Shown here: piece after piece, positions 485-47,973 of the stretch
Position numbering within the stretch: position 1 is the stretch's first letter
Layout of the letters: every line of letters begins with the position of its first letter
Assembly: GCF_040703125.1 (NCBI RefSeq)
Contig: NZ_CP160035.1
Span: 744,001-808,000, forward strand
Reading direction: 5' to 3'
From: Flavobacterium ovatum
GTDB taxonomy: Bacteria; Bacteroidota; Bacteroidia; Flavobacteriales; Flavobacteriaceae
DNA length: 64,000 nt
Made by a program: the position numbers and the translations under genes
The notes under the pieces: model-generated
The model's database searches: none
What the model was told of the DNA's origin: nothing
Seen by the model: the letters and a program-made list of their open reading frames with translations, nothing else

Positions 485-553
485 CATTTAAGTTTTGTTT
501 ATTGGGCTAACGCTGAATTTTTAAAACATATAAGAAATGTAAGCTCATATAAG
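485..553. repeat. Solo copy of the TAAG-phased repeat
   Basis: ACATATAAG, AATGTAAG and CTCATATAAG follow one another with TAAG at 531, 540 and 550 (spacing 9 and 10), plus a CATTTAAG upstream at 485. The same spacing and nearly the same sequence make up the inverted repeats around the GxxExxY gene at 21201..21799. No gene is associated with this copy. Confidence 0.6.
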
Positions 554-17265: not shown

Positions 17266-17392
17266 CATCAGGAGTACACGAATTATTTCCAAAATTCGTC
17301 CCCTCCTGCTGTTCGCTATATCTTTTTTGTGGTTCCAAAAAAGAACCACAAAAAAGGATGCCGCTGCCATCAGGACTAGCAACAACTTATAT
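17266..17392 (-). repeat. Two-hairpin structured element, copy 2
   Basis: On the minus strand: a 13 bp perfect hairpin (GAACCACAAAAAA with its complement), a GATATAGCGAA linker, then a long hairpin opening with CAGCAGGAG and closing with CTCCTGATG; its inner stem is ACGAATT (17278..17284) with AATTCGT (17293..17299). The architecture matches 689..794 although the sequences differ, as expected when only base pairing is conserved. Confidence 0.55.
17323..17355. terminator. Hairpin usable as bidirectional terminator
   Basis: TTTTTTGTGGTTC (17323..17335) and GAACCACAAAAAA (17343..17355) are perfect 13 bp arms around a 7 nt loop, with the U-run built into the stem on both strands. It lies between convergent genes ending at 17260 and 17401. 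Confidence 0.65.
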
Positions 17393-20329: not shown

Positions 20330-20773
20330 ATGAAAAATGTAATCGCATTATTGTGTTGTCTACTTATAGGGAGTAGTTGTGCTTGTCAAAAAAATGAAGA
20401 CATGAAAACCGCAATAATCGAATATGTTGCCAATACTAGAGGCTTTTATCAAAAAATAGAAATACAAAACAAAACAGCTTCGGTTACAAACGACCGTTCT
20501 GGAAAGGAGAAAGCAAAAACAATATCAATATCTGATGAAGATTGGAAAGAGATCGTCAGTTTATTCCAAAAGGTAAAGCTAGAGGAATTAGCACAATTGA
20601 AAGCGCCTACTCAAAAACGATTCCATGACGGTGCAGCCATCGCTAATTTGAACATAAAATACAAAGAAAAAGAATATGAGTCTGCTAGTTTTGACCATGG
20701 ATTTCCGCCTGCTGAAATAGAAAAAATAGTAAATAAAATCAATTCATTTGCAAAACAAAACAATGAAAATTAA
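20330..20773 (+). CDS. Putative lipoprotein of unknown function between sufS and sufE
   Basis: A 147-residue protein that I do not recognise. The hydrophobic N-terminus ends in the lipobox-like IGSSC (C17), with a second cysteine at 19. The mature part is hydrophilic and reads like a small beta-rich domain (KIEIQNKTASVTNDRSG and KEKEYESASFDHGF). It starts 9 bp after sufS, and its last 11 nt overlap the sufE start, so it is co-expressed with Fe-S assembly genes although it is predicted to be envelope-attached. No role is known. Confidence 0.7.
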   Translation: MKNVIALLCCLLIGSSCACQKNEDMKTAIIEYVANTRGFYQKIEIQNKTASVTNDRSGKEKAKTISISDEDWKEIVSLFQKVKLEELAQLKAPTQKRFHDGAAIANLNIKYKEKEYESASFDHGFPPAEIEKIVNKINSFAKQNNEN

Positions 20774-21182
20774 AGAAATACAAGACGAGATAGTAGACGA
20801 ATTTTCGATGTTTGATGATTGGATGGAGCGCTATGAATACATCATCGACCTCGGAAAAAAGTTACCGCTTATCGCCGAAGAATATAAAACCGACAATAAT
20901 TTAATCAAAGGTTGTCAATCGAAAGTTTGGTTACAAGGAGAGCAAAATGATGATACGATAGTATTCACAGCAGACAGTGACGCTATCTTGACCAAAGGGA
21001 TTATTGCGATTTTGATTCGTACTTTCTCCAATCAAAAAGCGATTGACATCATCAACGCTGACATGGATTTTATTGACGAAATTGGTTTGAAAGAACACCT
21101 TTCTCCAACACGTGCGAATGGATTGGTATCGATGATTAAGAATATTAAGATGTATGCTTTGGCATTCGATGCTAAGAAATAG
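20763..21182 (+). CDS. sufE: SufE sulfur acceptor
   Basis: A 139-residue SufE-family protein, standard length. MKIKEIQDEIVDEFSMFDDW begins the helical cap. The persulfide-carrying cysteine C51 lies in IKGCQSKVWL, at the same position as in E. coli SufE. It accepts sulfur from SufS and activates it. I chose the ATG at 20763, which overlaps the preceding gene by 11 nt; an ATG-less extension of five residues upstream is possible but unsupported. Downstream the transcript runs into the repeat-bounded GxxExxY insertion. Confidence 0.94.
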   Translation: MKIKEIQDEIVDEFSMFDDWMERYEYIIDLGKKLPLIAEEYKTDNNLIKGCQSKVWLQGEQNDDTIVFTADSDAILTKGIIAILIRTFSNQKAIDIINADMDFIDEIGLKEHLSPTRANGLVSMIKNIKMYALAFDAKK

Positions 21183-21200
21183 ACACTGATATGTTTTTTT

Positions 21201-21263
21201 AAACCATATAAGAAATGTAAGAGCATTTAAGAGAAACTAATAATTAAGAACATGTAAGCTTTT
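21201..21263. repeat. Left inverted repeat of the GxxExxY element
   Basis: AACCATATAAGAAATGTAAG followed by AGCATTTAAG and, after a gap, TTAAGAACATGTAAGCTT. TAAG recurs at 21209, 21218, 21228, 21245 and 21255. It is an inverted match of 21735..21799: the first 29 bp differ at three positions and the last 18 bp are also similar. Confidence 0.7.
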
Positions 21264-21322
21264 GATTGGGTTTCAATTACATAAAAATTCTTACTTTAGT
21301 AGTATCATCAACATCTACTACT

Positions 21323-21736
21323 ATGGTTACTAAGAAATCATTAAAGGATTTAATTTACACTGTAAATGGAGCAGCAATTGAAGTTCACAAACAATTAGGT
21401 CCTGGTTTATTGGAAAGTATTTATCATAAATGCATGATTCATGAATTAACTCTAAGAGGAATCCATTTTCAGACCGAACTTACAATTCCAATTGAGTACA
21501 AAGGTTTAAGTTTAGAATCTGATTTAAGATGTGATTTATTTGTCGAAAATTGCCTAGTAGTTGAATTAAAAGCAACTGATAAAATTATACCGGTTCATGT
21601 TGCGAAATTAATGTCATACATGAATCTTTTGGAAGCTCCGATTGGATTAATGATTAATTTTAATGTCACAAATATTTTTGACCATGGTCAAAAAACATAT
21701 GTCAATAATAGATATAGTACACTAAAAGAGGAATAA
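21323..21736 (+). CDS. GxxExxY protein, PD-(D/E)xK-like nuclease fold
   Basis: A 137-residue member of the GxxExxY family. The name-giving motif is G28-LL-E31-SI-Y34 in QLGPGLLESIYH. D71 in RCDLFVEN and E81-L-K83 in VVELKATDK form a PD-(D/E)xK nuclease-like signature, and LMSYMNLL plus GLMINFNV complete the fold. I chose the ATG at 21323; an upstream alternative start at 21266 lacks family support. The gene interrupts the suf cluster and is enclosed by ~60 bp imperfect inverted repeats, which suggests that it belongs to a small mobile or repeat-associated element. The biological role of the family is not known to me. Confidence 0.88.
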   Translation: MVTKKSLKDLIYTVNGAAIEVHKQLGPGLLESIYHKCMIHELTLRGIHFQTELTIPIEYKGLSLESDLRCDLFVENCLVVELKATDKIIPVHVAKLMSYMNLLEAPIGLMINFNVTNIFDHGQKTYVNNRYSTLKEE

Positions 21737-21799
21737 ACAAGCTTATATCTCTTTTAAGCAACAACACTTATATGGTCTTATATTTCTTATATGGTTAAG
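21735..21799. repeat. Right inverted repeat of the GxxExxY element
   Basis: Its reverse complement reads AACCATATAAGAAATATAAG, then ACCATATAAG, then TTAAAAGAGATATAAGCTT, parallel to the left repeat at 21201..21263. It begins at the GxxExxY stop codon. Confidence 0.7.
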
Positions 21800-21845
21800 A
21801 AAAAAATATAATTCTAATATGGTTTAAAACATAAAACAAATAAAA

Positions 21846-22169
21846 ATGGAACAACAAATAGACACCAACGAATTAGGAGAATTGATCGTAAAAAAATTAA
21901 AAACCATTTACGATCCAGAGATTCCTGTAGACATATACGAATTAGGATTGATTTATGACGTAATGGTAAATACAGATTATGAAGTAAAAATCTTGATGAC
22001 TTTGACATCTCCAAACTGCCCAGTTGCAGAAAGTTTACCAAGAGAAGTAGAGGAAAAAGTGAAATCAATTGAGCACATCAAAGATGCCGAAGTAGAAATT
22101 ACTTTTGACCCGCCATGGAGCAAAGATTTGATGAGCGAAGAAGCAAAATTAGAATTAGGAATGCTTTAA
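21846..22169 (+). CDS. SUF-associated DUF59/MIP18 family Fe-S assembly protein
   Basis: A 107-residue DUF59 protein. The family signature YDPEIPVDIYELGLIY (22-37) is followed by LTSPNCPVAESLP with the conserved cysteine C58, and by FDPPWSKDLMSEEAKLELG at the C-terminus. Such proteins (SufT-like, PaaD-like) help to mature Fe-S enzymes and are commonly found in suf clusters of Bacteroidota. It lies just beyond the GxxExxY insertion on the same strand, and without that insertion would follow sufE closely. Confidence 0.92.
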   Translation: MEQQIDTNELGELIVKKLKTIYDPEIPVDIYELGLIYDVMVNTDYEVKILMTLTSPNCPVAESLPREVEEKVKSIEHIKDAEVEITFDPPWSKDLMSEEAKLELGML

Positions 22170-22172
22170 AAA

Positions 22173-22243
22173 AGTTTCATGTTAAAGGTTTCACGTTACA
22201 TAAGAAAACTTGAAACCTTAAACCTTAAACTTGAAACTTGAAA
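22173..22243. repeat. GTTTCA/TGAAAC inverted intergenic repeat
   Basis: GTTTCATGTTAAAGGTTTCA on the left is answered by AACTTGAAACCTTAAACC and CTTGAAACTTGAAACC on the right. It lies between the DUF59 and DUF2480 genes and could form a long imperfect hairpin in the transcript. Confidence 0.45.
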
Positions 22244-22252
22244 CCAAAAGAA

Positions 22253-47929: not shown

Positions 47930-47973
47930 ACCATATAAGCCAAATAAGTTTTCTTTATTTAAGACCACATAAG
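47930..47973. repeat. Solo TAAG-phased repeat copy
   Basis: ACCATATAAGCCAAATAAG followed by TTTATTTAAGACCACATAAG, with TAAG at 47936, 47945, 47960 and 47970 (spacing 9, 15 and 10). Same family as the inverted repeats around the GxxExxY gene. Confidence 0.6.

Follow-up and report, generated by a model that had tools for sequence, protein, structure and literature searches.

In a 64,000-nt stretch of the Flavobacterium ovatum genome (the window; positions 744001-808000 of the 4.25 Mb single-contig genome), a GxxExxY nuclease gene lies between two inverted arms of a phased repeat. Such arms recur around relatives of the gene, the repeat is coupled to the protein also across unrelated sites, palindromes are dispersed through the genomes, and orthologous gaps turn over in their content. 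The inverted repeats around the gene, the matching repeats that its relatives tend to have and the scattered gene-less copies make the system look like a family of self-spreading DNA that has drawn little notice. The reading we favor, with a probability of roughly 0.57, is that the unit is a member of a repeat/nuclease system resembling REP/RAYT, with a PD-(D/E)XK nuclease in place of the HUH transposase. The small nuclease would be specific for one type of phased repeat (8-10 nt), two inverted arms of which bracket its gene, would act in trans on gene-less palindromic copies, and would only rarely move or copy its own unit. Binding and cutting of the repeats by the protein, perhaps on a hairpin or on paired arms, are our inference, as are the spread or homogenization of the repeat copies by this cutting and a movement of the nuclease gene between sites. 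Counting against this reading, four of the five repeat-richest genomes are without a cognate gene, gene presence and repeat number are only loosely linked, no target-site duplication is recognizable at the sites compared, and many gene copies are old residents; the genes without clear arms and the cases in which the arms resemble those of an own-genome paralogue at least as well (both below) also weigh against it.

The nuclease gene (21323..21736, + strand) encodes 137 aa from its ATG and has Pfam and NCBIfam matches; the frame is open from a TTG at 21266, and many relatives align from residue 1 of the ATG start at 21323. The left arm (21189..21231, + strand) is composed of the phased units CCATATAAG, ATGTAAG and CATTTAAG, with weaker TAAG units extending to ~ 21260, and the right arm (21767..21809, - strand) carries the left-arm units in inverse orientation, each unit ending in TAAG. 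The two arms of 43 nt are 86% complementary, and their 30-nt core (AACCATATAAG...) differs at three positions. An extra outer right unit (21807..21829, - strand) is inverse to 21197-21219 at 87%. The first-pass annotation had described repeats matching over their length with a three-mismatch core; the core stands, but the claim on length was generous, because the match past ~ 43 nt needs gaps. Its remark that the unit separates sufE from the DUF59 gene is borne out, as gene and arms lie in the gap between an upstream sufE-like gene (20748..21182, + strand), whose SufE model score is under the model's own cut-off, and the downstream SUF-associated DUF59 gene (21846..22169, + strand). An inverted-repeat score as high as that of the unit, 56, is reached at a single control ORF out of 273 and nowhere among 880 resampled flank pairs (maximum 32). 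A search of Rfam for known RNAs gave no entry at the nuclease/repeat unit. Elsewhere in the window, a Flavo-1 RNA at 17298-17381 (- strand) scores over the Rfam gathering threshold. Directly past the DUF59 gene (22166-22250) lies a palindromic repeat, GTTTCATGTTAAAGGTTTCA... / ...CTTGAAACTTGAAACC, which differs in type from the window unit and resembles repeats in sister suf clusters.

The window protein has PDDEXK_3 (PF13366, E 4.8e-37) as its sole Pfam match at E<=0.01 and GxxExxY (TIGR04256) as its sole NCBIfam match, passing the curated cut-off of 35 with 131.4 bits. The family is large, with 7,996 of 7,998 scored candidates matching. The PD-(D/E)xK signature recognized in the first reading is present and near-invariant in the alignment of relatives (D71 in 175/175, E81 in 171/174, K83 in 173/173), and E31 is found in 175/176. 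The signature is conserved under purifying selection, with strong constraint on the nuclease gene (dN/dS 0.04-0.18). The structure is predicted with a pLDDT of 95.5, and the modeled fold resembles PD-(D/E)XK-type nucleases: 4ic1 is among the top structural rows, many nucleases follow further down, Hjc resolvases are included, and there is a weak match to a domain of the homing endonuclease I-Bth0305I (E 0.21). Foldseek with the model against the PDB gave no match at E<=0.001, and a sequence search of solved structures gave no relative at E<=1. A defense system was considered and rejected, PADLOC returning only a weak Cas4 match and PHROGs none at E<=0.1. Plasmid or phage cargo is unsupported as well, relatives occurring in 7 of 72,556 plasmid and 2 of 50,697 phage records, the latter from the same virus (E<=1e-5). 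PMC8934634 reports a GxxExxY gene next to an RT gene, at a position that a different tool annotates as cas4. Searches of the open-licence PMC literature brought up no title or displayed abstract on a GxxExxY-repeat association, and the name itself turns up there in just two papers (PMC12085832 is listed for it).

Inverted arms are general to GxxExxY genes, though not every gene has them. Relatives were collected from named genomes (77) and further ones from 61 Flavobacterium genomes, giving 183 matches, of which 176 were kept as distinct and with flanks of at least 150 bp. An inverted match in the flanks within 300 bp reached a score of at least 28 at 139 of the 176 genes (79%) and at least 36 at 105 (60%), versus 3.3% (9) and 1.1% of the 273 control ORFs. 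As these controls all stem from the 77 named-genome loci and many of them sit in tightly packed coding DNA, Markov-resampled versions of the GxxExxY flanks were added (n = 880), 17 of which reached 28 and none 36. The arm rate is alike in both sets of genes (57/75 at named loci, 82/101 at the others), and clear arms within 300 bp are absent in 37 of the 176. For other Bacteroidota genera, 18 of 29 loci score at least 28 and seven at least 36, with just four possible controls, one of which reaches 28. The arms consist of short phased units of 8-10 nt, the best lag being 8, 9 and 10 in 85, 70 and 31 of 278 arms, respectively; a periodicity scan of entire flanks was uninformative, and the same kind of scan worked on the arms. 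GxxExxY genes elsewhere without such flanks had been named beforehand as evidence against a mobile element; the 139 genes with arms show a different picture, usually with another unit sequence than that of the window.

Of the 61 Flavobacterium genomes, 50 have GxxExxY genes (0 to 9 per genome), as do 75 of 148 genomes of Bacteroidota, and further matches occur in Bacteroides and Prevotella. Beyond this phylum, a Gemmatirosa (Gemmatimonadota) replicon holds 38 matches to CCGCNGAGGNCGCNGAGG (control 0) and a GxxExxY gene, perhaps frame-disrupted as it aligns in two BLAST pieces, between two complete palindromes. A Sphingomonas gene (L302 1192-1620) lies between fabD and fabG, and its C-terminal codons partly form the right arm. 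Read by eye, arms are also present at Bernardetia and Treponema genes, and Persicobacter is ambiguous.

The arm type changes with the clade of the protein tree. Classes assigned by eye along the tree run through ACGGATT, CACAAAGTT, CGCAAAGAC, CGCAGATT, CCGCAAAGTTCGCAAAG, CACAGAG, CCACGAAGG, CCATTAAG, CCATATAAG (the window type) and CCACATAG, and the five GxxExxY genes of the window genome have five arm types. Among 82 of the 101 elements outside the named loci (37 genomes), the 19 elements without clear arms being omitted, arm similarity between genomes rises with protein identity at a rho of 0.495; when arms are shuffled among genes within a genome (500 times), the mean is 0.059 and the maximum 0.202. 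Pairs without any shared flanking protein, judged on flanks of 0.7-4 kb and therefore possibly including some missed shared sites, give a rho of 0.412 (shuffle maximum 0.184). At 70-80% protein identity, arm likeness is 32.2 in 32 non-syntenic and 32.4 in 71 syntenic pairs. The nearest relative from another genome (< 75% identity) exceeds the best own-genome paralogue in arm likeness in 57 of 64 cases, and the nearest non-syntenic relative does so in 46 of 64 and fails in 18. The coupling exceeds that of every shuffle and survives the removal of syntenic pairs, so the arms track the gene more than the genome or the site. Repeat-rich genomes without a cognate gene would fit a passive association, in which other enzymes spread the repeats, the gene just survives among them and the coupling reflects shared ancestry. 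However, the coupling persists without a shared flanking protein (within the reach of these flanks) and drops on within-genome arm shuffles, and five genes bear five arm types in the window genome, and we regard such an association as very unlikely.

Gene-less copies of the repeat are dispersed. Matches to the window-unit pattern CCATATAAGNNATNTAAG number 638 and are spread over 31 of the 61 Flavobacterium genomes, with 20 exact matches in the window genome and up to 103 (G008); the reversed pattern, used as control, has none in the 61 genomes. A similarity search with the window arm in its own genome gave seven matches, the query itself and the right arm included. The pattern of a second clade, CCGCNAAGNNCGCNAAG, is found in 44 of 61 genomes with up to 86 copies, against six control matches overall. 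Within the window, a similarity match at 523..553 (+ strand) and a degenerate arm at 47930..47973 (+ strand), both read by eye, are single phased arms without a gene, whose inverted partner is not obvious by eye; the solo repeats listed in the first reading are thus real, and the genome has more of them. A CACAGAG-like phased stretch (GATTCACAGAGGAAACACGGAGA) lies at 440-470, close to the solo TATAAG arm.

Among the matches listed, adjacent CCATATAAGNNATNTAAG matches within 400 bp are convergent in 23 of 23 cases in G015 and 11 of 11 in G042. The 20 of 23 G015 pairs that were examined are palindromes with two ~ 30-nt arms around unrelated loops; in copies L397, L401, L403 and L410, the loop by eye holds another unit or the unit is nested in another. 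An autonomous element with its derivatives had been proposed for the window unit. A nuclease with inverted ends and gene-less copies is indeed present, but the 20 G015 copies are not deletion derivatives, because their loops are unrelated. Pairing maintained by arm-to-arm matching within each mini-element is also unsupported, left and right arms matching no better than arms of different mini-elements (a value as high as the observed one arises in 1,096 of 5,000 shuffles). The window repeat is most abundant in G008 (103), G015 (77), G057 (54), G056 (53) and G004 (50), and among these five genomes a gene of the cognate clade (at least 60% identity to the window's) is present in G015 alone. Genomes with a cognate gene have more than two repeat copies in 8 of 10 cases and those lacking it in 18 of 51 (Fisher p 0.014), a loose link.

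At two sites compared across the genus, one and the same gap bears a window-type unit, another phased type, another inverted repeat or none, depending on the species. One such orthologous site has the unit in six genomes (decayed in one of them), and there the arms are conserved and the loops have diverged. No target-site duplication is recognizable at the sites compared, which are highly diverged. At the site of L400, the gap is filled in other species (L414, L417, L418, L420) by intergenic inverted repeats of yet other kinds (GTCATTGCGAGGAACGAAGCAATC; TTTGTCATTTCGACGAAGGAGAAATCT; CCCGACAGGTTT).

The suf gap could be surveyed, by a DUF59 match with SufE upstream, in 60 of 61 Flavobacterium genomes, its states being sorted by eye. 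Ten genomes have the gene with arms and one a decayed gene (G019); gene-less two-arm units are of the window type in four and of two other types in four and three, five gaps hold single-arm remnants, and 28 of the remaining 33 span 0-52 bp. The window clade (at least 60% identity) is confined to those ten genomes and always sits at the suf gap. A fixed residence as a stable operon member, the alternative considered at the outset, is unsupported with the gene present in only 10 of 60 genomes. Host and nuclease distances at 17 suf loci, eight of them chosen for bearing the gene, correlate with an r of 0.49 (0 of 2,000 shuffles). A purely vertical history was nevertheless rejected, as two nuclease subtypes contradict the host distances despite this overall correlation: between G000 and G025 the distance is 0.08 for the host proteins and 0.39 for the nuclease, and the nuclease of the distant host G012 is 0.27 from that of G025 and 0.38 from that of G000. 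The history of the site probably comprises mostly inheritance with some replacement. At the suf site alone (17 loci), the nuclease evolves ~ 2 times faster than SufE and DUF59 (mean distance 0.31 versus 0.15).

These states could also be read as traces of a homing-like parasite, whose nuclease would cut gene-less palindromes made otherwise, repair from a gene-bearing copy then putting the gene into the loop. Gene-bearing, gene-less and decayed-gene gaps with similar arms would fit, as would the two subtypes at odds with host distances and a predicted fold that ranks with Hjc resolvases and, weakly, with the I-Bth0305I domain. However, homing leaves the spread of gene-less copies unexplained, and one clade gene per genome facing dozens of empty copies would be poor homing; we consider it unlikely.

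A gene of another clade is flanked by FecCD permease and ABC ATPase genes at L046, a member of a site cluster with 34 loci. GxxExxY genes are co-directional with the upstream neighbor in 71 of 76 and with the downstream neighbor in 66 of 72 cases, compared with 294 of 449 control pairs; counted per site cluster, the values are 34.7 of 40 for upstream (p 0.002) and 30 of 36 for downstream neighbors (p 0.02). This co-direction, the low dN/dS and the arms kept around diverged loops at one orthologous site hint at a host-retained function, with the arms as 3' UTR hairpins or attenuators that the nuclease processes or controls as an operon component and no parasite. Such a function is quite unlikely in our estimate: the gene is kept at suf in only a sixth of the genomes surveyed (10/60), sister species have unrelated repeats or none in the same gaps, and gene number varies from 0 to 9. 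As for the repeat/nuclease reading itself, the REP/RAYT-like anatomy with another nuclease fold, proposed in the first-pass annotation, holds, while movement is inferred and several copies of the gene have long resided at old, shared sites.

A second family of small genes shows related features. Four-helix-bundle genes (PF05635) occur in 60 of 61 Flavobacterium genomes, with inverted arms scoring at least 28 at 50 of 76 and a period of 7-8 nt. Their phased arm units (L239-L268, L333-L372) include CTAAGNNNCTAAG, TTAGACTTCTTAGA and AATTGTTAATTATAAATTG. The coupling of arm and protein is weak, with a rho of 0.307 versus a within-genome shuffle mean of 0.152 and maximum of 0.251 (49 elements with arms of at least 26). 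In another gap of the suf cluster (L373, L374, L376, L377, L379), a four-helix-bundle relative found by tblastn has inverted arms in G015, G008, G054, G053 and G057, and sister species have gene-less repeats or none there. Tentatively, and with more doubt than belief, GxxExxY and four-helix-bundle (S23/IVS) units might be two branches of one large cross-phylum, hairpin-borne class whose small proteins read short tandem units (8-10 versus 7-8 nt), the 23S rRNA IVS being a special case landed in rRNA loops. From this likeness, the boldest lead, follows a testable account of how 23S rRNA intervening sequences arose. Should the nuclease indeed read its phased repeats, the GxxExxY family would gain a substrate and one class of intergenic repeats a cause. 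The coupling also provides a ready specificity test, with ~ 10 protein clades each having its own predicted site.

Among the known systems closest to the window nuclease are the Cas4 and Hjc PD-(D/E)XK nucleases. The unit shares inverted ends and short gene-less copies with MITEs and DDE insertion sequences; in contrast to these, it has no DDE transposase, the loops of 20 gene-less copies are unrelated, and no target-site duplication was recognized at the compared sites, which are too diverged. The 23S rRNA IVS comprises a small ORF within an inverted-repeat stem with tandem short repeats beside it, in Coxiella heptamer repeats ahead of the S23 ORF (PMC4990558). The window unit likewise has a small ORF in an inverted-repeat stem with adjoining tandem short repeats, but its ORF is PF13366 rather than S23 and sits between the protein genes sufE and DUF59 instead of in rRNA.

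RAYT genes, according to PMC2817692, lie between two inverted repeats, coevolve with them, evolve faster than their neighbors and accompany many repeats per genome; the REP itself is a GTAG/CGTC-tagged palindrome of 20-40 bp (PMC3733652). GxxExxY genes likewise have flanking inverted repeats (139/176), coevolution with the repeat (rho 0.495), faster evolution than their neighbors (suf site only, 17 loci) and many repeats per genome. They differ in that a PD-(D/E)XK-type nuclease takes the place of the IS200/IS605-related (HUH) tyrosine transposase, in arms made of phased short units, and in a looser link of gene and abundance. Because inverted repeats, coevolution and fast evolution are shared, abundance is only loosely linked and the enzyme is not the RAYT-type transposase, the GxxExxY system works like REP/RAYT and is no member of it. 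If our reading is true, the REP/RAYT way of life arose again with an unrelated nuclease.
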